The translations under genes and the position numbers were made by a program. From NCBI RefSeq assembly GCF_009192945.1, contig NZ_NSET01000006.1:1-64000 (forward strand): a DNA stretch of 64,000 nucleotides, written 5' to 3'. This DNA comes from Xanthomonas maliensis (lineage in GTDB: Bacteria; Pseudomonadota; Gammaproteobacteria; Xanthomonadales; Xanthomonadaceae). Shown in pieces: positions 1 through 16,308 of the stretch. The notes below the pieces were generated by a model. That model saw only the letters and a program-made list of their open reading frames with translations. It was not told the DNA's origin and ran no database searches. The first letter of the stretch is position 1. Each line of letters opens with the position of its first letter.

Positions 1-1623
1 CAGACCGCCAGCACCGTCGACGCGGCCCGCATCAGTCCCCAGGTGACCTTGCGGCTGATCGACCTGCTGGTCGCCAAGGGCGTGCTGACCCGCGAGCAGG
101 CCGACGCGATGATCCAGGAGGCCGCGGTCACCGCGCCGGCTACCGCCACTGCGGACGTCGCCCCGGCGTCCAAACCGCCGTACCAGACCCAGCCTGGCGC
201 GGTGGTCGTGCCCTATGTGCCAGCGCCGGTCCGCGAGCAGATCAAGGAGGAGCTACGCGGCGAAGTGACCGCACAGGCCAAACGCGAGGGCTGGGCCGCA
301 CCCGGCGTGCTGCCGGAATGGACCCAGCGCCTGCGCCTGTATGGCGACCTGCGCCTGCGTGGCGAAGGCATCTTCTACCCGGACGGCAACTACGGCTTCT
401 TTCCCAATTTCGCCGACATCAACAACGGCTCTGGCTTCGATACGGTGGGCACATCGAATGCGCCCTTCCTCAACACCACCCGTAACCGCAGCCGCCTGCG
501 CATCCGTGCCCGCCTGGGCGTGGAAGCACAGATCGCCGACTGGATCACCGGCGACGTGCGCGTGGTCACCGGCGCCGACCGTGGCCCGGTCTCCACCAAC
601 CAGACGCTGGGTGGCGGTGGCAATTTGGCCAAGGAGCCGATCTGGCTGGATCGCGCTGCGCTGCTGCTGCAGCCCACGCCCAAGCTGGGACTGTCGTTCG
701 GCCGCTTCGCCAATCCGTTCTGGAGCAGCGAGCTGGTGTTCGACGAAGACATCAACTTCGACGGCCTCGCCGCCCGCTACGCCTTCGCGCCCGACACCGC
801 GTTCGCGCCCTACCTGAGCGCTGGCGTGTTCCCGGTCTACAACACCGACCTGGACTTCGGCTCGACCAATACCGTCAAGACCCGCAGCCGCGACAAATGG
901 CTGTATGGCGCCGAGCTCGGCGCGCACTGGCGCATGGGCGATGACACCGCGCTGCGGTTGGCGCTGAGCTATTTCCAGTACGACCAATTCGAAGGCAAGC
1001 GCTCCAGCCCGTGCCTGGCGCCCACCGCCAACGACAGCTGCGACACCGATGGCTCACGCCCGCAGTTCGAACAGTTCGGCAATACCCTGGTGCCGATCCG
1101 CAGCATCGTCACCGACCCGTCCAATCCGGGCGGGCCGCAACTGCAGTACTACGGCTACGGCAGCAAGTTTGGCGTCGCCAACCTGCATGCGCAGCTGGAG
1201 CTGGCGCAGTTCGACCCCATCAAGTTGGTGGTCGAAGCGGACATGGTCAAGAACACCCGCTATAACGCCGCCCGCGTGCGCTCGCTTGGCCCGGTCAACA
1301 ATCTCGGCGATGGCGGCCGCTTCGATGGCGGTGATCAGGGCTACCTGCTCAACCTGTTGCTGGGGCATCCGCGCACGCTGGAAGCCGGGCAATGGAACGC
1401 GTCGATCGGTTACCGCTACCTGGAATCGGACGCAGTGCCCGATGCCTTCGCCGATTCGGACTTCCACATGGGCGGCACCAATGCGCGCGGCGTGATCCTC
1501 GGCGGCGCGTATGGCCTGGCGCACAACACCTGGCTGTCGCTGCGCTGGCTCAGCGCCAACGAGGTATCCGGGCCGCCGTACGCGGTGGACGTGCTGCAAC
1601 TGGATCTGAGCGCGGAGTTCTGA
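1..1623 (+). CDS. putative outer-membrane porin (5' end outside window)
   Basis: The reading frame is open from base 1 and a GTG at 43 is only an internal codon, so the N-terminus, including any signal peptide, lies upstream; 540 residues are present. From about residue 105 onward the protein shows alternating amphipathic strands rich in Arg, Tyr, Phe and Gly (for example RLRLYGDLRLRGE and RSRLRIRARLGVEAQ) and ends LQLDLSAEF with a terminal Phe. Both are typical of outer-membrane beta-barrels. The pattern resembles the 'putative porin' family (Porin_5 type). The early part (about residues 15-90) is helical and Pro/Ala-rich. The stop is 2 nt before the next ATG, so it is probably the first visible member of an operon with the two small genes and the giant haemagglutinin-family gene. 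It might be the outer-membrane partner of that exoprotein in place of a TpsB/Omp85 protein; this is inference. Confidence 0.75.
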   Translation, partial: QTASTVDAARISPQVTLRLIDLLVAKGVLTREQADAMIQEAAVTAPATATADVAPASKPPYQTQPGAVVVPYVPAPVREQIKEELRGEVTAQAKREGWAAPGVLPEWTQRLRLYGDLRLRGEGIFYPDGNYGFFPNFADINNGSGFDTVGTSNAPFLNTTRNRSRLRIRARLGVEAQIADWITGDVRVVTGADRGPVSTNQTLGGGGNLAKEPIWLDRAALLLQPTPKLGLSFGRFANPFWSSELVFDEDINFDGLAARYAFAPDTAFAPYLSAGVFPVYNTDLDFGSTNTVKTRSRDKWLYGAELGAHWRMGDDTALRLALSYFQYDQFEGKRSSPCLAPTANDSCDTDGSRPQFEQFGNTLVPIRSIVTDPSNPGGPQLQYYGYGSKFGVANLHAQLELAQFDPIKLVVEADMVKNTRYNAARVRSLGPVNNLGDGGRFDGGDQGYLLNLLLGHPRTLEAGQWNASIGYRYLESDAVPDAFADSDFHMGGTNARGVILGGAYGLAHNTWLSLRWLSANEVSGPPYAVDVLQLDLSAEF

Positions 1624-1625
1624 GC

Positions 1626-2279
1626 ATGCGCATGCGTCCTGTGCTGTCTGCCCTCGTGCTGGTCGGCTGCGTTCCGTGGATCGCCACCGCGCAGACCACC
1701 ACCGAAGAACGTCTGCGCGACGCCCTGCGGCAGACCAGCGCGCAACTACGCCAGGTGCAGGCCGAGCTGGCGCAACAACAGCTCGCCACCGCCGCGGCGC
1801 AACGCGAGCACGAGGCCCAGCCACCGGCGCCGCCCGCCGCGAGCGCACCCAGCGATGCTGCGCGCACGGCGGCCTTGCAGCGCGAAGTCGCCCAGCTACG
1901 GCAGGCGCTGGAGCAGGAGCGCACGCAGCACGCGCGCGCCCTGGCCACCCAACAGCAGACCGCCGCCCAACAACAGCAGCAGCAGCAACAACAGGCGCTG
2001 GCGGACGCACGCAGCCAGACCCAGGCCCGGGTAAGCCGCTGCAACAGCGCCGGCGATGCGCTGTATGCCAGCGGTCGCAGCCTGGCCGGGCTGTATCGCG
2101 ACCCGGCGTTCGTGCGCTTCGTGCGCCATCGTGGCCACGAGTTGTTCGGCATGACGCGAGTGGCGGAAGAGAACCGCGTGCACGCACTGGAAGACACGCT
2201 CGCCGACCAGCATGCGCGATTGCGCACCTGCCTGGACGGACGCGACGCACCGCCCCCGCAGAGCGCGGCGGCGCCATGA
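1626..2279 (+). CDS. secreted coiled-coil protein with poly-Gln tract
   Basis: 217 residues. The ATG at 1626 was chosen because it lies just after the porin stop and begins a clear signal peptide (Met-Arg-rich start, hydrophobic stretch, Ala-x-Ala-like end near residue 22). Residues about 25-130 form a Gln/Ala/Glu/Arg-rich coiled coil with nine consecutive Gln (residues 115-123, mixed CAA/CAG codons at 1968-1994). Residues about 132-205 form a small conserved-looking domain with two Cys (RCNS and TCLDG). The stop overlaps the next gene's start (ATGA), which indicates translational coupling. The function is unknown. Its position between a porin and a giant exoprotein suggests a periplasmic accessory, perhaps a spacer or chaperone for export; that is inference. 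Confidence 0.7.
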   Translation: MRMRPVLSALVLVGCVPWIATAQTTTEERLRDALRQTSAQLRQVQAELAQQQLATAAAQREHEAQPPAPPAASAPSDAARTAALQREVAQLRQALEQERTQHARALATQQQTAAQQQQQQQQQALADARSQTQARVSRCNSAGDALYASGRSLAGLYRDPAFVRFVRHRGHELFGMTRVAEENRVHALEDTLADQHARLRTCLDGRDAPPPQSAAAP

Positions 2280-2617
2280 ACCGCCTGGCCGTGGCGGCGC
2301 TGCTGCTGGGCCTGGCCGCGCGCGCCCTGGCCGGTTCGTCCGACGCCGCGGCACCGCCGATCTGCGTGGAAGTGCAGATCGGTCAGCATCGCAGCGGCCA
2401 GTTGTCGTGCTTGAACCAGCAGTTGCGCGACAGCGTGGCGCGTGCGCGCGCAGTTCCCAGCGCGACCGCGCCGCCGGTGGCCGGCACGCCGATCGCCCTG
2501 GGCCAGCCCACGCCGGCCGCGCTGCGACAACGCTACGGCCAGGCCTATGGCCAATCGCTGCAACCGCAACGCCCGCCCGCGCCGCAGTACGCCTCCCCCT
2601 TTGCACCGACGCGCTAG
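2276..2617 (+). CDS. small secreted protein of the exoprotein locus
   Basis: 113 residues, starting at the ATG inside the ATGA overlap with the preceding gene. The N-terminus is a strong signal peptide of about 19 residues ending Ala-Leu-Ala-Gly. The mature part has two Cys about 15 residues apart (ICVEV and LSCLNQQ) that could form a disulfide, then a Pro/Ala/Gln-rich low-complexity tail. The stop is 23 nt before the giant gene's ATG. No known domain was recognised. The two-Cys segment may be the functional core; a periplasmic role in the same export system is inferred only from operon context. Confidence 0.65.
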   Translation: MNRLAVAALLLGLAARALAGSSDAAAPPICVEVQIGQHRSGQLSCLNQQLRDSVARARAVPSATAPPVAGTPIALGQPTPAALRQRYGQAYGQSLQPQRPPAPQYASPFAPTR

Positions 2618-2640
2618 CCGCCTCGCCCAAGGATCTCGCC

Positions 2641-5600
2641 ATGACCCGCACCTCCCGTCCCCGCCCGTTGCGCGTGCTGTTGCTGAGTGCCGCGATCGCC
2701 GCCGCGTTGGCCGAGCAGGCGTCCGCCCAGTCCAGTGCTTTCGTCCGGCGTGGTGCCGATCCATCCACCCAGGCGGCGCAGGCGGTGCAGCAGCAAGGTG
2801 CGCAGGCCGCCGCGGCCGGCCAGTTGGCGCAGAAATCGTTGCAGGCATTCCAACGTGCCGCGCAACTGCGGCAGGCGCTGGACGCCAGCCAGGCCGCGGC
2901 ACGCGCCGCCGCGCAAGCAGCACAGGCCTCGGCCATCCCCGATGGTCTGGCGCAGGGCGGTCTGCAACTGCCGGACAACCTGCAGGTGGACCCGGGTGCG
3001 ATCGCGCCCACCGACCCGCGCCTGGGCCAGCGCAATGTCTGGCTCGGCGCGCGGGCGCCGACTCAACAGACCAACAACGGCACCACCCAGGTCACCATTA
3101 CCCAGACGCAGAAGAAGGCCATCCTCAACTGGGAGAACTTCAACGTCGGCAGCAAGACCCAGCTACGCTTCGATCAATCGGCCGGTGGCGATGCCGCCGC
3201 GCAATGGATCGCGTTGAATCGGGTCAACGATCCGAGTACCGCACCCAGCCGGATCCTCGGCAGCATCCAGGCGCCCGGCCAGGTCTATCTGCTCAACCGC
3301 AACGGCGTGCTGTTCGGCGGCAGCAGCCAGGTCAATGTGCACTCGTTGCTGGTGTCCTCGCTGGATCTGTTCGATCCCAATCGCGCGCTCAGCGACCAGA
3401 CCTTCCTCAGTCGCGGGCTGTTCGGCACCACCGGCCAGAGCGGTGTGGTGCTCACCGGCCAGGATGCCGCCGCCTCCGGGGCGATGCCGGGCGATATCAC
3501 TGTGGAGAGCGGCGCGCGCCTGAGTAGCGGATCGCAGGGCTACACCTTGATCGCCGCACCCAATGTCCGCAACGCCGGCACCATCGCTGCGCAGGATGGG
3601 CAAGCCTTGCTGGCCGCCGGGCTGGGGCTGCGGCAGTCGCAGGAGTTGCAGGGCCTGCTCAACCCCGCTGCCGGCACCGCCGCTCCGCTGGGGTTTTCCG
3701 GCTTCTCTTCGCCGATCAACAGCGACCTCTCGCGCATCGGCCATCTGGACAACAGCGGCATCGTCACCTCCATCCGCGGCAACGTGACCCTGGCCGGGTC
3801 CAGCCTGCAGCAGCGCGGCCTGGTCACCGCCACCACCGGCATCAGTCAGCCTGGCAGCGTCATGCTGCTGGCGATCGGCCAGGACAATGCCACCGGCGAC
3901 GGCAGCCTGTTCGATTATCGCGGCGGCGCGTTGTCACTGGCGCCCGGCGCGGTGACCGCGATCCTGCCCGAACACGATGGCCAGACCACCGTGTCCAGCG
4001 CAGCAGCCGATCGCAGCTTCGTCGGTCCCAAGATGGTGCTGGCCGGCGCGCAAGTGCAACTGGCCGGACAGTCGCTGACGTTTGTTCCCGGCGGCAGCCT
4101 GAATCTGTACGGGCTGGCTGCCGAGAACACCCCAGGACAATTGCGCGGCCGTCAGGCACTGACCAATCGGGTCATGATCGACAGCGGCGCACAGCTGGCG
4201 GTCTCCGGCATCGCCAACGTGCAACAGACGATGCAGGACAATCTGGTGACGATCCCACGCGTCGGCCAGAACGAATTGGCCGATGCGCCGTTGCAACGCG
4301 ATGGCACGCTGTTCCGCCAATCGCTGCAGTTCGACCGGCGTGTCAGCGGCGTGGACAGCCAGGGCCGGCCGTGGGTCGGCAGCCCGCTGCTCAACGCCCA
4401 GGGCTATGTCGACCAGGTGCCGCGCACGATCGACCAAATGCTGCTCGACGGCGGCAGCATCACCATCGCCGCCCGCGATGTGGTCATTGCGCCGGGCGCC
4501 CAGCTCGATCTGGACGGTGGCTATGTGCACACCCAGGGCGGCATGGTGGAAACGCCGCGCCTGCTCGGTGCCGATGGCCGTCTGTACGACCTGGCCAGTG
4601 CCGATCCCGAGCAACGCTATCTCGGCATTGCCGGGAGCCAGACCGTCAATCATGCGCGCTGGGGCGTCAGCGAACAGTTCGGCAATCCCCTGCTCGGCAG
4701 CCGCCGCTACTACGAAAGCGATTACCTGCAAGGCGGCAACGGCGGCACGCTGACCATCGAACTGGCACGCACCACCGGCCAGCCGGGCCTGGCCCTGCTG
4801 GGCGGCAGCGTATCGGCGCAGGCGCTGTCCGGGCGCTATCAACGTGCCGACGGCAGCATGGCGCAGGGTGGTGCCTTGCGGATCGACAGCGACAGCAACA
4901 CCTATGCCGCCACGATCGGCAGTGCCGCCTTTGTCGAAGCGCGCGATGCACGCAGTTGGCAGATCCTCGACAGCACACTCGACTGGCCGCAAGGGCTGGC
5001 GCTCACGACTGCGGCGAGCGACGTGTCGGGCAGCGCAGGCGGTGCGCAGCAACGCGACAACCCGTTGTTCTGGTCGCAGCTGTCGACCCGGATGATCAAC
5101 GGCAGCGGCCTGCAACAGCTGGCGATCGGCAATGCACCGACGATCGCGCTCGACGCCGGCGCGCGCCTGCAGGTGGCCGACGGCGGTAGCGTGTCGCTGC
5201 AGGCGCAGCGGGTCGAGCTCGATGGCGCGATCACTGCGCGCGCCGGCAGCATCGCCGTGCAGAGCGCCGGTGGCCTGGTCAATCCGCAGGATCCGCGCGC
5301 CAACGCAGCGCCGCTGTCGGTACGCGGCGATCTGTTGGTCGGTACGGGCGCACGCCTGGACGTCAGCGGGCGCTGGGTCAACGACGATCGCCGATTGACG
5401 CTCGATCCGGCCGGCAAGGCCTTCATCGACGGCGGCAGCATCGCCCTGGATGGCCTGCAGGCCCGCCTCACCGATTCGCTAAGCGGCGTGACGCGCGACC
5501 TCAGCGCCTCGGTGCAGGTCGCATCCGGTGCCGTGCTCGATGCATCCAGCGGCGGCTATGTCGCCCAGGATGGCAGCCTGACGCTCCGCGATGGCCGTCC

Positions 5601-8600
5601 GCTCGGCCATGGCGGCGACATCGCGCTGCGTACGTACGTGCGCGCCGGCAACGACGGCATCCCCACCCCGGCCGACGCCACCGATCTGCCGGTGGCCGAC
5701 AATGCCGGCCGCCTGCAGTTCGATCCGGCCAGCCTGCATGCCGACAACTTCGCTGGCGGCGGCACGCTGCGTCTGCAGGCCTTCGGCGTGCAGATCGGGG
5801 CTGCGACGGCGAGCGACCCGCGGGTGCTGCAGCTGGCACCGGATTTCTTCGATGGACGCAGCTTCGGCAGCTACGATCTGGCGGCCTATCGCGATGCCAG
5901 CATCGCCGCCGGCGCCCAGGTACGGGTTCGCCAGCGCAACCTGATTCCCGACCAGCAGGCGCTGCGCAGCGCTCCCAGCGACAGCGCGGTGGTGGCCGGC
6001 GCGTCGCAAGCCGGCGGCAATGGGTATGCCACGCTTGCAACGCTGGATCCGTTCTATCGCCCGACGACCGATTTTGCGCTGCGTGGTGGCGAATTCCTGG
6101 CCTGGTCGGGCGCCAACCCGAACCTGAGCATCGCCAGCGGCCGCACCGCACTGGAAACCGGTGCCCAGCTGCTGCTGGACCCGGGCGCGAACGTGCGCGT
6201 CGGTGGCCGCGGCCAGGTCGATGTGCTCGGCAGCATCCAGAGCCAGGGCGGTCGCATCGCGATTTCCGGCGACTCCTCCGCCGACTCCGGCCTGTCCGCC
6301 CCGTCCGGCGGCGCGTCCGGCGTGGCGTACGCATTGCCGGGCAAATCGGTCTGGCTGGGCGCGGACAGCCGCCTGGATGTCTCCGGCATCGCCCTGCTCG
6401 ATCCGCAGGCCGCGCTGCGCCCCAGCGCACGCGGCCTGGTGCAACCGCGTAGCGGACGCGTGCTCGACGGTGGCCAGATCATCCTCAGCAACGACAGCGG
6501 TGCCGTCGTGGTGGCCGCAGGCGCGCAACTGGATCTGCGCGGCAGTGCCGCGGTGCTCGACCTGCCCAGCGGCAACGGCGCGATCGGCGCCAGCGACACC
6601 TTGCAAGCGCAGACGGTCGGCAGCGCTGGCGGCCAGCTCGACCTGGCCGCGAACACCGGCCTGTTCTTCGAAGGCGCGATACGCGCTGCCGGCGGCACTG
6701 GGCAGGATCGCGGCGGTACGCTCTCGCTGTTGCCGCTCAATCTGGTCGATGGCCCGACCACCGTCCTGCCCGGGCCCAGCGGCATCATCCTCACCCAGCA
6801 CGACAGCCGCCTGCCGGCGAGCGCGCAGTTGGGTCTGCCGTTGCCATCCGCTGGCGCCACGCCGGCACCGTTGTATTTTGCTGTCGATCGGCTGGACGGC
6901 AGCGGCATCGATACGCTGCGAGTCGGCGACCAGACCGGCGGCGAGCATGCGATGGTGCCGATCGGCTTTGCTGGCGATGTGACGCTGTCGCTGTCGCGCG
7001 CACTGCAATTGAACGCGCCGTCCTATGCGTTGCTGCGGGCCGATGCGCAGGATTTCTCCCGCCTGGCGGACGGCAGCCAGGTCAGCCTGAGTGCGGCCTA
7101 TGTCGGCCTCAACGGTTGGCGTCAACCGAGCCGTGACGCCACCGTGTTGCCGCAGCCACGCAGCGGCAGCGGTACCACATTGGACGTACAGGCGCAGCAG
7201 CTGGATATCGGCGGCCAGCTCGCGCTGGATGGCGTCAGCCAAGCGGTGCTGTCCAGCACCGGTGCAGTGCGTCTGCACACACCGACCGACTACGCCTACC
7301 AGTTGGACGCCAACGGCGTGGCGAGCGCACGTGCCGGCGAACTGCTGACCGCCGGCGACCTGACCCTGCGTGCCGCGCAGATTTACCCGGCCAGCGGCGA
7401 GACCTTCCTGGTGCGTGCACTCGGTGTCGCCGATGCCAGCGGCACCCGGGCCGACACCACGATCCACATCCAGGCGCAGGGCGCGCTGCCGGCAGTGCCG
7501 CTGTCGGCCGGCGGCACGCTGGCGCTGGACGCCACCACCATCGTGCAAGAAGGCCGACTGCGCGCGCCGGGTGGTCAAGTGCTGCTGGGCGCCAGCGGCG
7601 ACCCGCAGGACCCGGCCAGTGCGGTCTTCGGTGCGCGGGCGCTGACGCCGACCCGCACGCTGCAGCTGGGCGCCGGCAGCCTGACCTCGGTGTCGCTGGA
7701 GGGCGCGGTACTGCCGTACGGCACGACCGTCGACGGCAGCCAGTGGCGTTACGACTTCAGTCCCACCGGCAGCAGCGCTGCATTGACCGCGCCGCCACGC
7801 AAGCAGATCCTCCTGCAGGCCGACGCGATTGCGCTGGACGCCGGCGCACAGGTGAACGTGTCCGGCGGTGGCGATCTGCAGGCCAGCGAGTGGGTGCCCG
7901 GCACCGGCGGCAGCCGCGACGTGCTGTCTTCCAACAACACCAGCTACGCCACCGGCGTGGCGACGCAGGTACCGCTGTATCCGGACGGCCGCACGGTCTA
8001 CGCGATCGTGCCGGGCGCGCAGCCGCTGGTCGCGGCCACCGACGCCGCATTCGAGCGCAGCGAAGGCGCGCCTGCGTTGGGCAGCGCGGTGGCGTTGAGT
8101 GGCGTTCCAGGACTGCCCGATGGCACCTACACCTTGCTGCCGGCGAAGTACGCCACCCTGCCCGGCGCCTACCGCGTGGTCGCCCGCAGCGGCAGCAGCG
8201 ATGCTACCTCGGCACAAAACCTGATCGCGCCCGATGGCACTGCGGTGGTCGCCGGACGTCTGGTCGACACCTTGAGCGGCACCGGCAACGCGCGCACGCA
8301 ATGGTTCGACGTGCAATCGGCCGCCAGCTGGGGGCTGTACTCGGAATACACCAGCAGCCGCGCCAACAGCTTCTTCGCCAAGCAGGCGGCCAGCGCCGGC
8401 CAGGTCGCACCGGCCCTGCCGCGCGATGGTGGACAGCTGATCCTGGCCGCCGGCGAACGGCTTGCGCTGGGCGCCACCCTCACCACCGGCGCAGATGGCG
8501 GCAACGCCGCCCAGGTCGACATTGCCGCCAAGGCGCTGCAAGTGCTTGGGAACAACCAGAGCGCCGCCAGCGGCTATCTCGGCGTCAGCGCCGCCGATCT

Positions 8601-11600
8601 CACCACCTTGAATGCCGGCAGCCTGCTGCTGGGCGGCATCCGCACGCAGACCACGGACGGCACGCGGGTGCAGGTCACCGCGCAGGATGTGCGCGTCAGC
8701 AACGATGCCAATGCGCCACTACGTGCGGCCGAGCTGCTGCTGGTCGCCGACGGTGCCGGTGGCAACGGCGTGCACGTGGATGCCGGCAGCGTCCTGCAGG
8801 CCAGTGGCGGCAATGGCACGGCGGCAACCTCAACGCTGTTGCTGGGCACGCCGACCAGCAGCGACGGCGACGCGGCGCTGGTGCGCTTGTCCAGCCTCGG
8901 CGCAGCCACACTGCAACGCACTCAGTCCGGTGATGCCGCACGACCGCGCGCGATGCTGCAGATCGGCGATGCCGCCGTGCTCGACGGCGCCGCTGCGCTG
9001 ACGCTGGATTCGACCGGCGACAGCGCCATCGCTGCCGGCGCCTTGCTGCGCGCCGAGCGCATCGATGCCAGTGCCGGGCATGTCCGACTGGATCCGAATG
9101 CGCTCGGCAGCGACGCCGACGGCCTGGTGCTCGGCCCGGCCAGCCTGGGCCAGTTCGCTCAGGCCAAGCAGGTCACGGTGCGCAGCTATGGCGACATGGA
9201 CCTGGCCGCCGGGCTCGACCTGCGGGTGGGCACGGCGCTCACCCTCAGTGCGCAGCGCTTCGTCGGCGAAGGTGGCGATGTCGGCCTGAGCGCAGACCGG
9301 CTCACCCTGTCCAATCTCGGCGGCAGCGATGCCGCGCCCGCAGACGATGCCGTGATCAGCGGCGGCACGCTGCGGCTGCAAGGTCGCGAGCTGGTCTTCG
9401 CTGGCGGCGACAAGCAATTGCTCGGCTTCGGCGCCCTGCTGGCCGATGCCAGCCAGACGCTGTCGGTGCAGGACCGTGGTCAGTTCGATGCCGGCGTGGC
9501 CAGCGTGCGCTTGCGTGCGCCCTTGCTGCGCGCCGATGCCGGCGCCGACCAGACCCTGCGCACCAGCGGGGCGATGCAGCTGCAACGCACCGACGGCAAT
9601 GTCGACAGCGCCCAGCCGCTGGGCGGCCGCATCGGTCTGGAAGGCGGCAGCATCGACAGCACGGCGCTGATTCGCGCCAATTCCGGCGCGATCGCCCTGC
9701 GCAGCAGCAATGGCGCGTTGCTGCTGCACGACGGCGCCAGCCTGGACACCTCGGGCATCGCCGACCGTTTCTTCGACACGCTGCGCACCACCCCCGGCGG
9801 CAGCATCAGCCTGACCGCCCTTGGTGGCGATGTGCGTCTGGACGGCAGCAGCCGCGTGGATGTCGGTGCCAGCGGCAGCGCCGATGCCGGCCGTCTGGCG
9901 GTGTCGGCCGTGCAGGGCGGGGTCAGCCTCGCCGGCACGCTGGCCGGGCACGCCGCGCAGGGGCGCGGCGGGCGCTTCACCTTGGACGCGGGCACCCCGA
10001 TCGCACTCGATCCGCTGGCGGCGCAATTGGCCAAGGGCGGCTTCGACGGCGCCATCGACGTGCACGCCCGCAGCGGCAACCTGGTGCTGTCGGCCGGCCA
10101 GACCCTGCGCGCCGACAGCGTCAGCCTGACCGCTGACGGAGGTACGGCGGCGGCGCGCGATGCCGACAATGGCAACCTGCGCATCGATGGCAGCATCGAT
10201 GCGTCCGGGTCGCAGGGCGGCACCATCGGTCTGTGGGCGCGCCACACGCTTGCCGTCAACGGCACCCTGCTGGCCCGGGCCAGCACCGCCGATCGCCGTG
10301 GCGGCAGCATCCAGCTCGGCACCAGCGGCACTGGCGATGGCACCCTCAATGCCGACTACGGCTACCAGAACGTGCAGGCCGACGCTGCCGGCACCATCGC
10401 GATCGGCCCGAATGCGGTGCTGGACGTCTCCGGCGGCAGCGCCGGTGGCCTCTCCGGTGGCGAGGTGCAACTGCGCATGCCGCTGCTCAGCGACGGCGAA
10501 GTCAATCTCACCGTCGCCGCAGGCGCCAGCATCCGGGGCGCACGCGAGGTCGGCCTGGAAGCCTATGCGGTGTGGAGCACCACCGACGCCAGCGTCGATC
10601 CGTCCAAGCACTTCGACGGCATCGTCGATCCGGCCGGCTGGTACGACGCCCAGGGCAACCTGCTCGTCGGCAGCTGGGCGGACCTGTCGGGCAATGCGAT
10701 CGCCAGCGCGCCCACCACTCCGGCGCAGATCGCCGACTACCTCAGCCGCTATGTCTTCACTCCCGACAGCGCCAACGCTGCGCATCGGCAGTTCTACGGC
10801 TACGCCGACGACACCGCCGGCACGCCTGGCACGTTGATGGGCTTCGTGCAGAACCCGGGGTTCCGCTTCGAGGGACGCCTGGCCAACGTGCCCAACCTGC
10901 GCGCACGTCCGGGCATCGAACTGCGCAACCCCGATCCCGGCATCAACGGCGGCGAGATCCGCGTGCTCAGCAACTGGAACCTCGGCTCCGGTGCCAATCG
11001 CAATCAGCTCGACTTCCGCTACCAGGGCACTGCGCCGACGCTGAGCCTGCGCGCGCAAGCAGGCGTCATGATCAAGGCCAGCCTGAGCGATGGCTTCTAT
11101 CAGTTGAGCAATCCATTCGGCGGCGGCGGCCCGCAGGCGAACTACCCGAGCGCGCAGGCCGGCTACCAGGCGGTGCTGACCTTTGGCCAGGACCAATTCG
11201 TCTCGCTGGATGGATTGATTCCGGCACCGCCGGCCAATCCCGGAGGCGATCAAGAAGAAGCGTTGCAGTATTACGGGCAGTACCTGCAGCTGTTGGACAT
11301 GCTGCAGAAACCGCAAGCCGAACTGCCGGGTTTCCCGCCCGCCAATACGCTGCTGGGCGGCTTCATCCTCAACTACGCGCCGGAGTCGGGATTCCCGGTA
11401 CAGGATTATCCGGGACAACCCAGCGCGCCTGCCGGGCCGACCTCGCCGGCCGACTATGCGCAGTACCTGCACAACTACGAGCGCTATCTGCTCGACCTGT
11501 CGGCGTTCTACAACGCGCTGGGCGAATTCGCGCTGCCCACGCTCACCCTGCCCTCGCTGCCGGTGATCGGCCCGCTGTTGCCGGCCGCCACCCAGAACAC

Positions 11601-14600
11601 GCCATCGCTGCAGGCCAATGCCCGCAATCCGCTGCCGATGGCGACCACCAGCCTGATCGGTGGCGACAGCACCCGCTATCGCATCGTCGCCGGTGCCGAC
11701 TTCGCCAACCTGCGTCCGGATGCCTTGCGTCGCGACAGCACCGCCGACGTGGTGATCGACGGTCATCAGCGCTACCAGGAAGCAGGCAAGCGCGATGTGC
11801 TGCTGCCAACCGTGGTACGCACCGGCACCGGCAGCATCCAGATCGCCGCCGCGCGCGACCTGCGCCTGGCCGATGCCGATGCCCCGGCCAGCATCTATAC
11901 CGCTGGACGACCGGCCGCCGACAGCGAGATCGGCACCGATACCCGCGTGCTGCGCAACGAAGACGCCGATGGCAATGGCGGCGTGATCAATCGCAGCGCC
12001 GACCAGGTGATCGGCGCGCAGGCCAATGCGGAGGCGGCCGGCGATCTGCTGCTGCAGGCCGGTCGCGACATCGTCGGCAACCGCCAGGTGTTCGATCGCG
12101 ATGGCAGCCGCACCGGCCTGGTCGGCAACTATGTCGGCCAATACTGGTGGCCTTGGTTGCAGCTCGGCAATCCGGTCGGCGCCGATGGCAGCACCCCGCG
12201 TGCCGGGGTGATCAACTATGCAGGCTTCGCCCAGGGCATCCTCAGCAGCGGCGGCGATGTCGCGGTGCAGGCCGGACGCGATGTTCGCGAGTTGTCGGTG
12301 TCGTTGCCGACCAGCTACCAGCTCGATGGCAATGGCCGTCGCACCTATGGCGGCGGTGACCTGGACCTGGAGGCCGGTCGCGACGTGCTGGGCGGCGATT
12401 ACTTCGTCGCACTGGGGCAAGGCCGCCTGCAAGCGGGCGGCAGTCTCGGCAGTGCCTTCTCGCTGTCGGCGCAAGGCTATGCGGGCACCGGTCCGCGCAG
12501 CGTGCAAAGCGGCATCGATCCGATCCTGGCCTTGCAGGACGGCCAATGGTCGGTGCACGCAGGCAGCGGCGCAGCGATCGGCGCCATCCTCAATCCCAGC
12601 TACCTGGTCGCCTCCGGCAATGCCGCGCCGACACTGGACAACGCACGCGCGACCATCGACTACGGCGATGCGTCGGCAGTGGCGATCGAAAGTCTGAACG
12701 GCGACGTCCGCCTGGGCACCCTCAAACTGCCGGGTTTGTTGTTCGCCAATGGCCAGCGCGAACGCAACGCGCTGGGAGAGGATGCGGTGATTCTCAGCGC
12801 CAGCGCCTACGACAGCGTGCTGCCGGCGCAGCTGCAGGCGATCGCGCACGGAGGCACGGTGCAGATCGAGAACAGCGCACGCCTGTACCCGTCCGCGCAG
12901 GGGCAACTGGAACTGATGGCGCAAGACGACGTACGGCTATTCGACGACACCTTGGTCGGCAACAAGCGCAAGTTCCAGTTGGCGATGCTCGATCAGGCCG
13001 GCGCCTATGCCGGCGACGACGGCCTGCCGGCTGCCGATGACCACCTCGACCTGCATCGCGACGATCCACAACCGGTGCGTATCTACGCCCGCCAGGGCGA
13101 TCTGATCGGCGGCTACGCCACGACCGGCTTCATGGTCAATCCGCTGACGCTGGACTTGCCAAAAGCGGTCGATATCCGCGCAGGCGGCGACATCGTCAAT
13201 CTGGACCTGCGCGCGCAGCATGACCGATCGTCCGATCTCAGCCGCGTGCAGGCCGGACGCGATCTGTACTACACCCCCATCCAGGGCGGACCGCGCAGCG
13301 ACATCACCGAGACGGTACGCTGGGGTTGGCTGGACCTGGCCGGCCCCGGCACCTTCGTGGTGGAAGCCGGACGCAACCTTGGCCCGTTGACCTCTGCCAA
13401 CGAAGCGCTCGCCAGCGGACTGTTGAACGACCGCAATGCCGGTGGCATCCGCACCAGCGGCAATCGCCGCAACAGCGCGCTGCCCACGGTCGGCGCCGAT
13501 CTGGTCGTGCGTTATGGCGTGGCCAATGGCGAGGATGCCGATGCGCTGGCGGCGCTGTACCTGGATCCCTCCAGCCCGCAGAGCACGGCGACCTATCGCC
13601 AATGGTTGCTCGACTTCATCGCCCTGCACGATCCGCGCACCGGCACAACGATCATGCCTGCTGCGATGTCCACCACGCAGCCCTCCATGGAGGCGACCAC
13701 GCCGACCGATGCCTGGCAGCTGTTCGCGCAATTGCCGGCCGACACCCGCAAACTGCTGGCCGAGCGCGTCTTCCTGGACGTCCTCAAGCAAGTCGGCGAA
13801 GGCTACGCCGACCCGGCCAGCGCCGACTTCCAGAAATACGCACGCGGCTATGCCGCCATCCAGGCGATGTTCCCGGCCGAACGCGGCTATACCCGCAATA
13901 ACCTGGAGGGCGGCGCCAATGGCGCTGCAACCCGTGCCAGCACCGGCAGTTTGGACATGCGTGGCTCGACGCTGCAGACCGAGCGTGGTGGCGATCTGCG
14001 CATCCTCGGCCCGGGCGGCGATCTGCAGGCCGGTAGCACGCTGGCGCCGCCCAGCGTCGTCGACACGCAAGGCAGCGTGCTGATCGGCCCGGCGCAGCAA
14101 GGCATCCTGGCGGTTGGCCATGGCGATATCGGCATCTTCACCGATGCCAGCGTCCTGCTGGCCCAGAGCCGCATCTTCACCCAACGCGGCGGCGACCTGA
14201 CGATCTGGAGTTCCAACGGCGACATCAACGCCGGCAAGGGCAGCAAGACCAGCGCCGAACGTGCACGTGCTCGCTATCTCTGCGACAACGACCAGTTCTG
14301 CATGTTCGACGCCAGCGGCCAGGTCAGCGGTGCCGGCATCGCAACCTTGCAGCTGACCGCGGACGATCCGCGCGGCAGTGCGGTCCTGGTCGCTCCACGC
14401 GGCACCGTGGATGCCGGTGATGCCGGTATCCGGGTCGCTGGCAACCTGGTGGTGGCTTCGCAATTCATCGCCAACGCCGACAACATCCAGGTCAAGGGCG
14501 ACAGCGTGGGCATTGGCACCGCGCGTAGCGTGAATACCGCTGCGCTCAGCAGCGCCTCCACAGCCGCTGCGGCTGTGGCCGGTGCCGCCGACGACCTGTC

Positions 14601-14706
14601 CAAGCGACCGCCCTCGGTTACCGACACGCCATCGGTGATCACCGTGCAGGTCCTCGGCTTCGGCGAATGCGTCGACAACGATCCACGTTGCCGGCCGAGT
14701 CCGTGA
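2641..14706 (+). CDS. giant filamentous-haemagglutinin-family exoprotein with TPS domain
   Basis: 4021 residues, one of the largest proteins a Xanthomonas-type genome encodes. The ATG at 2641 begins an Arg-rich signal peptide (about 30 residues, ending ASAQ). After an Ala/Gln-rich helical segment (about 35-105) comes a haemagglutinin/TPS secretion domain (about 110-360) with NWENFNVGSKTQ near 161 and NRNGVLFGG near 219, the counterpart of the NPNG motif of two-partner-secreted proteins. The rest is beta-helix-like sequence with many GG-x-hydrophobic turns (GGSI, LDVSG, GARL). The C-terminal third resembles the DUF3739 haemagglutinin-family region; this is from memory. The only four Cys are C3881, C3887, C4010 and C4017. 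No TpsB/Omp85 gene is seen; the neighbouring porin is the only visible barrel. Its likely role is a surface-exposed or secreted adhesin or biofilm protein. No C-terminal toxin domain was recognised. Confidence 0.85.
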   Translation: MTRTSRPRPLRVLLLSAAIAAALAEQASAQSSAFVRRGADPSTQAAQAVQQQGAQAAAAGQLAQKSLQAFQRAAQLRQALDASQAAARAAAQAAQASAIPDGLAQGGLQLPDNLQVDPGAIAPTDPRLGQRNVWLGARAPTQQTNNGTTQVTITQTQKKAILNWENFNVGSKTQLRFDQSAGGDAAAQWIALNRVNDPSTAPSRILGSIQAPGQVYLLNRNGVLFGGSSQVNVHSLLVSSLDLFDPNRALSDQTFLSRGLFGTTGQSGVVLTGQDAAASGAMPGDITVESGARLSSGSQGYTLIAAPNVRNAGTIAAQDGQALLAAGLGLRQSQELQGLLNPAAGTAAPLGFSGFSSPINSDLSRIGHLDNSGIVTSIRGNVTLAGSSLQQRGLVTATTGISQPGSVMLLAIGQDNATGDGSLFDYRGGALSLAPGAVTAILPEHDGQTTVSSAAADRSFVGPKMVLAGAQVQLAGQSLTFVPGGSLNLYGLAAENTPGQLRGRQALTNRVMIDSGAQLAVSGIANVQQTMQDNLVTIPRVGQNELADAPLQRDGTLFRQSLQFDRRVSGVDSQGRPWVGSPLLNAQGYVDQVPRTIDQMLLDGGSITIAARDVVIAPGAQLDLDGGYVHTQGGMVETPRLLGADGRLYDLASADPEQRYLGIAGSQTVNHARWGVSEQFGNPLLGSRRYYESDYLQGGNGGTLTIELARTTGQPGLALLGGSVSAQALSGRYQRADGSMAQGGALRIDSDSNTYAATIGSAAFVEARDARSWQILDSTLDWPQGLALTTAASDVSGSAGGAQQRDNPLFWSQLSTRMINGSGLQQLAIGNAPTIALDAGARLQVADGGSVSLQAQRVELDGAITARAGSIAVQSAGGLVNPQDPRANAAPLSVRGDLLVGTGARLDVSGRWVNDDRRLTLDPAGKAFIDGGSIALDGLQARLTDSLSGVTRDLSASVQVASGAVLDASSGGYVAQDGSLTLRDGRPLGHGGDIALRTYVRAGNDGIPTPADATDLPVADNAGRLQFDPASLHADNFAGGGTLRLQAFGVQIGAATASDPRVLQLAPDFFDGRSFGSYDLAAYRDASIAAGAQVRVRQRNLIPDQQALRSAPSDSAVVAGASQAGGNGYATLATLDPFYRPTTDFALRGGEFLAWSGANPNLSIASGRTALETGAQLLLDPGANVRVGGRGQVDVLGSIQSQGGRIAISGDSSADSGLSAPSGGASGVAYALPGKSVWLGADSRLDVSGIALLDPQAALRPSARGLVQPRSGRVLDGGQIILSNDSGAVVVAAGAQLDLRGSAAVLDLPSGNGAIGASDTLQAQTVGSAGGQLDLAANTGLFFEGAIRAAGGTGQDRGGTLSLLPLNLVDGPTTVLPGPSGIILTQHDSRLPASAQLGLPLPSAGATPAPLYFAVDRLDGSGIDTLRVGDQTGGEHAMVPIGFAGDVTLSLSRALQLNAPSYALLRADAQDFSRLADGSQVSLSAAYVGLNGWRQPSRDATVLPQPRSGSGTTLDVQAQQLDIGGQLALDGVSQAVLSSTGAVRLHTPTDYAYQLDANGVASARAGELLTAGDLTLRAAQIYPASGETFLVRALGVADASGTRADTTIHIQAQGALPAVPLSAGGTLALDATTIVQEGRLRAPGGQVLLGASGDPQDPASAVFGARALTPTRTLQLGAGSLTSVSLEGAVLPYGTTVDGSQWRYDFSPTGSSAALTAPPRKQILLQADAIALDAGAQVNVSGGGDLQASEWVPGTGGSRDVLSSNNTSYATGVATQVPLYPDGRTVYAIVPGAQPLVAATDAAFERSEGAPALGSAVALSGVPGLPDGTYTLLPAKYATLPGAYRVVARSGSSDATSAQNLIAPDGTAVVAGRLVDTLSGTGNARTQWFDVQSAASWGLYSEYTSSRANSFFAKQAASAGQVAPALPRDGGQLILAAGERLALGATLTTGADGGNAAQVDIAAKALQVLGNNQSAASGYLGVSAADLTTLNAGSLLLGGIRTQTTDGTRVQVTAQDVRVSNDANAPLRAAELLLVADGAGGNGVHVDAGSVLQASGGNGTAATSTLLLGTPTSSDGDAALVRLSSLGAATLQRTQSGDAARPRAMLQIGDAAVLDGAAALTLDSTGDSAIAAGALLRAERIDASAGHVRLDPNALGSDADGLVLGPASLGQFAQAKQVTVRSYGDMDLAAGLDLRVGTALTLSAQRFVGEGGDVGLSADRLTLSNLGGSDAAPADDAVISGGTLRLQGRELVFAGGDKQLLGFGALLADASQTLSVQDRGQFDAGVASVRLRAPLLRADAGADQTLRTSGAMQLQRTDGNVDSAQPLGGRIGLEGGSIDSTALIRANSGAIALRSSNGALLLHDGASLDTSGIADRFFDTLRTTPGGSISLTALGGDVRLDGSSRVDVGASGSADAGRLAVSAVQGGVSLAGTLAGHAAQGRGGRFTLDAGTPIALDPLAAQLAKGGFDGAIDVHARSGNLVLSAGQTLRADSVSLTADGGTAAARDADNGNLRIDGSIDASGSQGGTIGLWARHTLAVNGTLLARASTADRRGGSIQLGTSGTGDGTLNADYGYQNVQADAAGTIAIGPNAVLDVSGGSAGGLSGGEVQLRMPLLSDGEVNLTVAAGASIRGAREVGLEAYAVWSTTDASVDPSKHFDGIVDPAGWYDAQGNLLVGSWADLSGNAIASAPTTPAQIADYLSRYVFTPDSANAAHRQFYGYADDTAGTPGTLMGFVQNPGFRFEGRLANVPNLRARPGIELRNPDPGINGGEIRVLSNWNLGSGANRNQLDFRYQGTAPTLSLRAQAGVMIKASLSDGFYQLSNPFGGGGPQANYPSAQAGYQAVLTFGQDQFVSLDGLIPAPPANPGGDQEEALQYYGQYLQLLDMLQKPQAELPGFPPANTLLGGFILNYAPESGFPVQDYPGQPSAPAGPTSPADYAQYLHNYERYLLDLSAFYNALGEFALPTLTLPSLPVIGPLLPAATQNTPSLQANARNPLPMATTSLIGGDSTRYRIVAGADFANLRPDALRRDSTADVVIDGHQRYQEAGKRDVLLPTVVRTGTGSIQIAAARDLRLADADAPASIYTAGRPAADSEIGTDTRVLRNEDADGNGGVINRSADQVIGAQANAEAAGDLLLQAGRDIVGNRQVFDRDGSRTGLVGNYVGQYWWPWLQLGNPVGADGSTPRAGVINYAGFAQGILSSGGDVAVQAGRDVRELSVSLPTSYQLDGNGRRTYGGGDLDLEAGRDVLGGDYFVALGQGRLQAGGSLGSAFSLSAQGYAGTGPRSVQSGIDPILALQDGQWSVHAGSGAAIGAILNPSYLVASGNAAPTLDNARATIDYGDASAVAIESLNGDVRLGTLKLPGLLFANGQRERNALGEDAVILSASAYDSVLPAQLQAIAHGGTVQIENSARLYPSAQGQLELMAQDDVRLFDDTLVGNKRKFQLAMLDQAGAYAGDDGLPAADDHLDLHRDDPQPVRIYARQGDLIGGYATTGFMVNPLTLDLPKAVDIRAGGDIVNLDLRAQHDRSSDLSRVQAGRDLYYTPIQGGPRSDITETVRWGWLDLAGPGTFVVEAGRNLGPLTSANEALASGLLNDRNAGGIRTSGNRRNSALPTVGADLVVRYGVANGEDADALAALYLDPSSPQSTATYRQWLLDFIALHDPRTGTTIMPAAMSTTQPSMEATTPTDAWQLFAQLPADTRKLLAERVFLDVLKQVGEGYADPASADFQKYARGYAAIQAMFPAERGYTRNNLEGGANGAATRASTGSLDMRGSTLQTERGGDLRILGPGGDLQAGSTLAPPSVVDTQGSVLIGPAQQGILAVGHGDIGIFTDASVLLAQSRIFTQRGGDLTIWSSNGDINAGKGSKTSAERARARYLCDNDQFCMFDASGQVSGAGIATLQLTADDPRGSAVLVAPRGTVDAGDAGIRVAGNLVVASQFIANADNIQVKGDSVGIGTARSVNTAALSSASTAAAAVAGAADDLSKRPPSVTDTPSVITVQVLGFGECVDNDPRCRPSP

Positions 14707-14970: not shown

Positions 14971-16308
14971 GTGCGTACTTTCGTCAATGCTCCCGCTTCG
15001 CTCACCGCCGCCCTCGCCATCGCGCTGAGCGCGCTGGCCACCCCCGCTTTCGCCGCGGAAACCCTCTACGGTGGTGGCGCCACCTTCCCCGCTCAGCCCT
15101 ATGTCGGCAACGGCTATCTGAGCAGCAGCCCGAACGCACGTCTGTCCACCAATGCAGGCAATACCTCCGGCACCGCCAGCACCGCCGGCATCAGCGCCGG
15201 CTCGGTGTTCGCCGCGTTCAGTGCCGGCAGCAATGCCAACAAGGTGTCCTACTGCCAGACCGGCAGCGGCTTCGGCAAGAACACCCTTGCCGGCAGCACC
15301 GCCGCCAACCAGGCCTGTAACGATTTCAGCACGTCCCCCGCCGGTCTGAGCGCCGCCGCTGCCGCTCCGGACTTCATCGGCACCGATGCGCCTTACAGCA
15401 CCACCGATTACAATGCCTTCCTCAACGGCACCAATGGCGCATCGCGCGTGGGCATCGTGCAGATCCCCACTCTCGCCGGCGCAATCGCCCTGCCGCACAG
15501 CGCAGCCACCAACCCCAGCACCGCCACCTTGGCGCTGACCACCGCCCAGGTCTGCCAGATCTACTCCGGCCAGGTCAGCGACTGGTCGCTGGTGTCCGGT
15601 AGCGGCGCGACCGGCGCGATCAAGATCGTGTACCGCACCGACGGTAGCGGCACCACCTTCGCCTTCACCAGCTATCTGGCGCGCGCGTGCAACAACACCT
15701 CCAACGTACCCTCCGGCTTCGTGTTCACCCCGAACCAGACCTTCAACTCGGCACTGCCTGGCGGCGTGAGCACCGTCTACGGCTCGCGTGCGATCGGTGC
15801 CAGCGGCAACAACGGCGTCGTGTCGGCGGTGCGTGCCAGCGGCAACAGCAATGCGGTGGGTTACGCCGATATCGGTGAAGTCGTGCTGCAGTCGGCGCGC
15901 TACGCCACTGTCGACAGCTTTGACCCGACCCAGTTCGGCAAGAACAGCGCCGGTCAGGCTACCCCGGTGGCGCTGGCGGCCGCCGCACTGCTGAGCGGCC
16001 GCGTGCTCGACGGCGCTACCGTCAACACCGTGCCGGGCAGCGGCTCGACGACCGTCAAGAATTGCACGCGTCTGGTCAATCCGACGGCCGCAATCACCAA
16101 TGCCTACCCGATCGCTGCGATCACCTACCTGGCCGGCTACACCAGCGGCAATGGCAGCGCGGCCCATGTGCAGGCAGTGAAGGATCTGTTCGGCATCTTC
16201 TACAACTCCACTACCCGTCCGGCGCTGCCGACCGGCTTCGCTTACATCGATGGCGTGGCGGCGTTCCGTCAGCAGGTGCTGAACACCGTGAGCACCTGCG
16301 TGCAGTAA
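14971..16308 (+). CDS. PstS-like phosphate-binding / substrate-binding protein
   Basis: 445 residues. The GTG start is supported by an AAGGAG ribosome-binding site 8-12 nt upstream and by an immediate signal peptide (about 29 residues, ending PAFAA). The N-terminal GGGATFPAQPY and the internal RTDGSGTTFAFTSYL are hallmark segments of the PstS phosphate-binding fold, and TDAPYS resembles the PstS SDAPL region. It is longer than transport-type PstS (about 320-345 residues) and no pstCAB genes adjoin it. A secreted or surface phosphate scavenger, or another non-transport role, is therefore possible. It lies after the exoprotein gene in the same orientation, with 264 nt between, and has its own terminator. 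Confidence 0.78.
   Translation: MRTFVNAPASLTAALAIALSALATPAFAAETLYGGGATFPAQPYVGNGYLSSSPNARLSTNAGNTSGTASTAGISAGSVFAAFSAGSNANKVSYCQTGSGFGKNTLAGSTAANQACNDFSTSPAGLSAAAAAPDFIGTDAPYSTTDYNAFLNGTNGASRVGIVQIPTLAGAIALPHSAATNPSTATLALTTAQVCQIYSGQVSDWSLVSGSGATGAIKIVYRTDGSGTTFAFTSYLARACNNTSNVPSGFVFTPNQTFNSALPGGVSTVYGSRAIGASGNNGVVSAVRASGNSNAVGYADIGEVVLQSARYATVDSFDPTQFGKNSAGQATPVALAAAALLSGRVLDGATVNTVPGSGSTTVKNCTRLVNPTAAITNAYPIAAITYLAGYTSGNGSAAHVQAVKDLFGIFYNSTTRPALPTGFAYIDGVAAFRQQVLNTVSTCVQ

Follow-up and report, generated by a model that had tools for sequence, protein, structure and literature searches.

How is a giant exoprotein of the two-partner secretion (TPS) type exported when no TpsB gene is visible beside it? 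This question is raised by a four-gene row at the start of a 64,000-nucleotide stretch of Xanthomonas maliensis DNA (hereafter the window; assembly GCF_009192945.1, contig NZ_NSET01000006.1, referred to as contig C98 of genome G000, positions 1-64000). Base 1 of the window is the contig edge. The genes of the row, and the exoprotein elements discussed below, are as follows.

1..1623, forward strand: Porin_5 outer-membrane barrel, truncated at its 5' end (signal peptide region) where the window and the contig begin
1626..2279, forward strand: coiled-coil protein of 217 residues with a signal-like N-terminus, after a 2-nt gap from the porin gene
2276..2617, forward strand: small two-Cys protein of 113 residues with a signal-like N-terminus, in ATGA overlap with the coiled-coil gene
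2641..14706, forward strand: giant TpsA exoprotein of 4021 residues, 23 nt after the two-Cys gene
3061..3621, forward strand: TPS secretion domain, exoprotein residues 141-327 (PF05860, E 4e-19)
14188..14517, forward strand: DUF3739, exoprotein residues 3850-3959 (PF12545, E 5.8e-33)
14644..14664, forward strand: C-terminal strand motif VQVLGFG, exoprotein residues 4002-4008, with a Cys pair after it at 4010 and 4017

The four genes, their spacing and the exoprotein length given by the original prediction agree with the sequence, and the barrel is, as it stated, a porin rather than a TpsB (Pfam Porin_5, PF16930, E 1.5e-180). Its observation that no TpsB is visible holds for the window, where none adjoins the row. 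This absence is nevertheless an edge effect: no TpsB is seen because the contig edge cuts the locus, and a TpsB is found on another contig of the source genome, C90, and upstream of the row in X. floridensis. We therefore read the window as the 3' half of a Xanthomonas PdtA/PdtB-type TPS locus, from which an assembly gap inside tonB has removed the 5' half (TpsB, DUF2341-ExbB, ExbD and TonB), and we assign this reading a probability of about 0.78.

Four ShlB/TpsB matches are present in the source genome, on contigs C90, C100, C71 and C80. The match on C90 belongs to a row that runs off the contig edge.

C90 2320-4017, reverse strand: TpsB with POTRA_2 and ShlB domains, likely start at 3888
C90 508-2286, reverse strand: DUF2341-laminin-G-ExbB protein
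C90 99-503, reverse strand: ExbD
C90, first 89 bases only, reverse strand: TonB-like gene, continuing off the contig edge

In X. floridensis (L013), one contiguous row holds TpsB, ExbB, ExbD, TonB (with a TonB_2 match), the porin, the coiled-coil protein, the two-Cys protein and the exoprotein. The last 1500 bases of C90 and the first 1500 bases of C98 both align to this contig, at 7785-9284 and from about 10001, respectively, which leaves about 716 bases between them. The porin contig of X. pisi likewise begins within TonB. When scored with a profile built on 21 linked TpsBs from outside Xanthomonas, the C90 TpsB reached 653.8 bits, compared with 93.5 for C100, 50.9 for C71 and 22.6 for C80. 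The TpsB and energy genes of C90 thus seem, across the contig gap and by comparison with relatives, to adjoin the C98 genes in the source genome. The C100 TpsB was rejected as the partner of the exoprotein, both on this score and because it adjoins a TPS-domain gene of its own. That second gene, truncated at the end of the contig, encodes an exoprotein with a TPS domain and a DUF5649 repeat match, and the two form a separate, ordinary TPS pair (L005:12251-15282) preceded by a run of genes that, judged by eye, resemble type VI secretion genes.

The locus comprises both parts of a type Vb system, namely a TpsA with an N-terminal TPS domain, which also matches adhes_NPXG (TIGR01901), and a TpsB with POTRA domains and a ShlB barrel, the adjacency of the two being deduced as described above. 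By analogy with its family, the exoprotein would cross the outer membrane through the TpsB encoded on C90. The original prediction had allowed that the unseen sequence upstream might hold a TpsB or energy-coupling genes, and C90 and the X. floridensis row fit both possibilities. Its proposal that the porin and the small proteins replace TpsB is not supported, as a TpsB lies directly upstream of the set in X. floridensis and probably also in the source genome.

The porin occurs in 3 of 35 genomes in the genus and in 2 of 60 in a family sample, the source genome being included in both counts. In a survey of 370 genomes of the class, 54 gave a Porin_5 match. Twenty-four of these exceeded 400 bits, a cut-off of our own choosing for a strong match (three of the 24 lack one profile end), and the remaining 30 were partial, at no more than 118.5 bits. 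DUF3739 was found above its cut-off in 23 genomes, with at most 12 candidates scored per genome, and each of these genomes belongs to the set of 24 in which Porin_5 is matched strongly. As every DUF3739 exoprotein above the cut-off comes with a strong Porin_5 match, the porin and the energy genes look like parts of a machine and not like chance neighbours. The exception among the 24, G435, has a partial ExbB, and neither DUF2341 nor DUF3739 was found in its genome. One long frame there (L064:6220-14154, reverse strand) contains both exoprotein and ExbB matches and resembles a fusion by deletion. G287 has a DUF3739 match below the cut-off (25.1 bits, with one internal stop) and no Porin_5 match. 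DUF2341 occurs in 29 of the 370 genomes, including the 23 with DUF3739; in G177, the match sits in a different gene, a 1632-residue frame.

Linkage was assessed on the same contig, within 40 kb, for 28 porins (25 from the class survey, plus those of G016, G076 and G086). DUF2341 was linked to the porin in 23 cases; in 22 of them it precedes the porin by 3.4-3.9 kb on the strand of the porin, and in the remaining one (G100) it is 28.7 kb away. DUF3739 was linked in 23 cases and TpsB in 21. Among the misses, the contigs of G000 and G086 begin at or near the porin, and that of G177 begins inside ExbB. TpsA and TpsB lie together on another contig in both G177 and G363, and in G388 the TpsB is located away from the porin. 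A TpsB is present somewhere in 26 of the 27 carrier genomes. In G455, a second ExbB-porin core (contig C80 of that genome, 55706-60323) lies on a contig with no TpsA or TpsB match and is possibly a stand-alone unit.

The conserved order suspected by the original prediction is borne out. Loci were mapped with home-made profiles whose seeds came from Xanthomonas and from plasmids of Klebsiella and Methylosinus, and which were extended on the very loci being mapped. The order ExbB-ExbD-TonB-porin was found in 23 of the 26 mapped loci, including that of X. floridensis, the exceptions being L012 (contig edge), L054 (G100, where the unit is elsewhere) and L064 (G435, where part of ExbB is in the exoprotein frame). 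In 24 of the 26, a match to the coiled-coil profile, which may catch unrelated helices, follows the porin at a distance of no more than 2.5 kb. TpsA and TpsB have no fixed place around this core and may precede it, follow it or lie on the opposite strand. Of the partners first proposed, the porin belongs with the exoprotein by co-occurrence (23 of 23 DUF3739 genomes) and the coiled-coil protein by gene order, whereas the two-Cys protein does not.

The two-Cys protein, judged from its distribution, is outside the wider system. Six database proteins were found, itself included, and the four with a named source are all from Xanthomonas; Cys 30 and Cys 45 are invariant in all six. Two profile matches were left out, one antisense to TpsB (L049) and one of 298 residues (L069), and an assignment as COQ7 was rejected, the match being under its cut-off. 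The coiled-coil protein has no Pfam match and an all-helical predicted model (pLDDT, the predicted local distance difference test score, 85.1), with Cys 139 and Cys 202 invariant in an alignment of 30 sequences.

The same arrangement is known from Pseudomonas aeruginosa. In the accessible parts of three publications (PMC2729926, PMC7035377, PMC4971064), its row is given as pdtB, exbB2, exbD2, tonB4, PA0696 (a putative porin) and PA0697, with pdtA nearby, and is placed in the VreI/PUMA3 regulon. TpsB, ExbB, ExbD, TonB, the putative porin and a further protein come in the same order in both species, with a giant TpsA in the locus. In contrast, the exoprotein gene of the window lies downstream of the coiled-coil gene, and the two-Cys protein is additional. 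PUMA3 clusters elsewhere are reported to associate with TPS genes, ExbBD and PA0696 homologues (PMC2729926, accessible text). The DUF2341 appendage on ExbB-like proteins is described as of unknown function in the part of PMC12505986 that was available.

A match to the published order is found on the Klebsiella quasipneumoniae plasmid pKqq_SB98_1 (NZ_CP084804.1, L067). Its row comprises a TonB-dependent receptor, a sigma factor, a DUF4880 protein, a TpsA haemagglutinin, TpsB/ShlB, ExbB, ExbD, TonB, a putative porin, a hypothetical protein, YbjN, a PpiC-type peptidylprolyl isomerase, a second hypothetical protein and LysR, which is the order reported for PA0674-PA0701, as far as the accessible sources give it, minus the hxc, lap and phdA genes. 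The plasmid shares the core with the window: its porin is 40.1% identical to the window porin, and the gene downstream is matched by the coiled-coil profile. It differs in carrying the sigma factor, DUF4880 and YbjN/isomerase genes, and in having its exoprotein upstream of TpsB. A search of 17 kb of C90 and of the initial 40 kb of the window found no YbjN or PpiC homologue. The plasmid NZ_CP084804.1 is a conjugative IncFIB plasmid and thus carries a complete Pdt-type locus together with its regulators. A K. pneumoniae plasmid (NZ_CP065459.1) encodes a putative porin of the same family, and a Methylosinus plasmid has a similar gene set with a haemagglutinin gene at its end.

On its sequence, the window locus is a Xanthomonas member of the already known Pdt-type system, having the order ExbB-ExbD-TonB-Porin_5-coiled coil (split between C90 and C98 in its own genome) and a giant DUF3739 exoprotein in the locus. 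The HxuCBA system of Haemophilus influenzae is more distantly comparable. It combines a TpsA, a TpsB and an outer-membrane barrel working with TonB for nutrient capture (PMC5422565, accessible portion). However, HxuC is a TonB-dependent transporter, whereas the barrel of the window is a porin and window-type loci encode ExbB, ExbD and TonB themselves.

A phosphate theme appears both in the published system and next to the exoprotein gene of the window.

14971..16308, forward strand: DING/PstS-like substrate-binding protein (PBP_like_2, PF12849), GTG start

The best solved relatives of this protein carry the names phosphate-binding protein, DING or alkaline phosphatase. Its gene adjoins the exoprotein gene in all five same-family carriers searched (G000, G076, G086, G016 and G333) and on the Methylosinus plasmid. 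In G322, a weak match lies near TpsB, and in G230, G182 and G301 the gene is elsewhere. In P. aeruginosa, lapA (PA0688), a phosphatase gene, similarly lies near pdtA according to the accessible sources. These also report that PhoB and VreI control pdtA and phdA-pdtB-exbB2D2-tonB4-PA0696-0701 (PMC4971064) and that PA0690, PA0696 and PA0698 are raised when phosphate is limiting (PMC9769906). The DING-like neighbour, as far as gene neighbourhoods indicate, fits this theme but is lineage-limited. In a pho-box scan of 15 regions, with a home-made consensus, plain shuffles and a crude score, five regions were at or below 0.04 of shuffles: the one preceding the DING-like gene of the window (0.005), two in G333 (0.005 and 0.01), AmX2 (0.025) and Burkholderia (0.04). 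In G333, the exoprotein frame is immediately preceded by a tandem pair of DING/PstS-like genes (L076:440-3191), with near-identical pho-box-like sites before the second DING gene and near the exoprotein start.

The porin itself does not show the hallmarks of a TonB-dependent receptor. Its predicted model has 16 long strands, as opposed to a plug and a 22-strand barrel, and no plug domain was matched in Pfam in the part encoded by the window, the first 25 or so residues lying outside it. The closest solved fold found is that of OmpM1 from Veillonella parvula (8bys, 8bym), at 17% identity over aligned residues, and a porin profile gave only chance matches to the sequences of solved structures. 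OmpM1 is an attachment porin. Two elements are found at the porin N-terminus.

37..129, forward strand: helical hairpin, porin residues 13-43, then a low-confidence linker (predicted structure)
196..234, forward strand: motif GAVVVPYVPAPVR, porin residues 66-78, V-x-V-x-Y-V-P leading into a helix (conservation among homologues)

Among 115 homologues, Y72 is conserved in 97%, P74 in 99%, V77 in 96% and R78 in 98%. The core pattern, a looser one composed after a stricter one had been tried, is present in 110 of the 115 and in 25 of the 27 mapped porins. The stricter, TonB-box-like pattern is present in only 75 of 115 and 11 of 27; the element is a conserved motif and at most a candidate TonB box.

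The exoprotein has a conserved element at the opposite end. In 23 of 24 closed exoproteins, that of the window included (window, L015 and L047-L076 compared), the final 60 residues contain a VEVLGFG-like motif, which lies outside the DUF3739 match; in 8 of the 24 it falls within the last 8 residues. In the exoprotein bodies, 58,566 residues in all, the pattern, which was defined post hoc from the same sequences, occurs a single time. The short conserved motifs of the two proteins, C-terminal in the exoprotein and N-terminal in the porin, are candidate contact points.

Beyond gene content, order and co-occurrence, which is the level demonstrated here, the role of the set can be proposed tentatively, at somewhat less than even odds: ExbB, ExbD, TonB, the porin and the coiled-coil protein may work alongside the exoprotein at the surface, as its companion unit, when phosphate is short. 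In this scheme, TonB would link inner-membrane energy to the porin, perhaps through the N-terminal strand motif of the latter, and the coiled-coil protein would span the periplasm. The exoprotein and the porin could then jointly capture and import a nutrient that contains phosphorus, in the way that HxuA and HxuC handle haem. As no TonB-dependent receptor is present in the Xanthomonas row as mapped, TonB probably acts on the porin or on some other component of the set. No published mechanism for the TonB unit or the porin of Pdt-type loci was found in the literature searched, which mostly excluded subscription papers.

Several points weigh against the reading of the window as half of a Pdt-type locus and against the role proposed for it. 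No sequence joins C90 to C98, so that their adjacency relies on relatives, and the putative identity with PA0696 and PA0697 rests on gene order and published annotation. Homologues of vreA, vreI and vreR were found on three plasmid loci, while a search of 17 kb of C90 and of the window's first 40 kb gave none. Single mutants of tpsA, tpsB, the tonB homologue and PA0696 in P. aeruginosa were as virulent as the wild type in zebrafish (PMC2729926, accessible text). Eighteen of the 27 carriers have no DING-like match, no pho-box site is common to the relatives, and X. floridensis and X. pisi do not share the site of the window where the matching region was scored. A porin with no plug and a fold closest to that of OmpM1 would suit tethering no less than uptake. 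Finally, in a same-family carrier, G016, two DUF3739 exoproteins are present, but neither Pfam nor a search of its assembly with the C90 protein gave a TpsB. We read the latter as a probable assembly gap: the core contig of G016 is 3,770 bases long and begins inside ExbB, followed by ExbD, TonB and the porin, and a TpsB could lie beyond the cut.

Capture and uptake under phosphate shortage would be favoured over two other roles for the set. In the first, which we consider unlikely, TonB-ExbBD powers secretion or anchoring: the periplasmic C-terminal tail of the exoprotein, a linker and the VEVLGFG strand, would be gripped by TonB, the porin or TpsB, and the proton-motive force would aid the export, hold or release of a protein too large for folding alone. 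The retention of the C-terminal motif in almost all closed exoproteins and the linkage of energy genes to the exoprotein family across the class sample argue for this, as does the need for a TonB-dependent transporter in PopC secretion in Myxococcus (PMC6434023, accessible part). However, the tail has no known binding partner and its pattern was drawn up after the fact, and type V secretion is described, in the available text of PMC5422565, as proceeding without an energy source, with reconstitution in liposomes working without one.

The second role, which is more doubtful still, is that of a tether. The porin, being OmpM1-like, would with its N-terminal helices and the coiled-coil protein link the outer membrane and the periplasm and bear the load of the giant protein, and TonB-ExbBD would serve as a Tol-like force unit. 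Export by the porin and small proteins with no TpsB, the explanation first offered, is very improbable: the row without a TpsB in the window and the G016 genome speak for it, but a TpsB lies upstream in relatives and on C90, is within 40 kb of most porins and is found in nearly every carrier, and the G016 core contig is short and cut.

These results remove what is likely a false exception, a TPS exoprotein without a TpsB. They connect the Xanthomonas locus with a P. aeruginosa system that is linked to virulence and phosphate and in which the role of the TonB unit and the porin is undescribed in the literature searched, as far as the sources were accessible. They also raise the concrete question of whether a type V secretion system draws on the proton-motive force, and which of the two conserved motifs provides the coupling. 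An answer in favour of coupling, improbable as we judge it, would be a two-partner secretion driven by the proton-motive force, in which TonB-ExbBD, spanning the periplasm together with the coiled-coil protein, grips the exoprotein C-terminal and porin N-terminal motifs and drives export, holding or ligand uptake by the giant surface protein. If true, this would be an exception to the rule by which type V secretion proceeds without energy.
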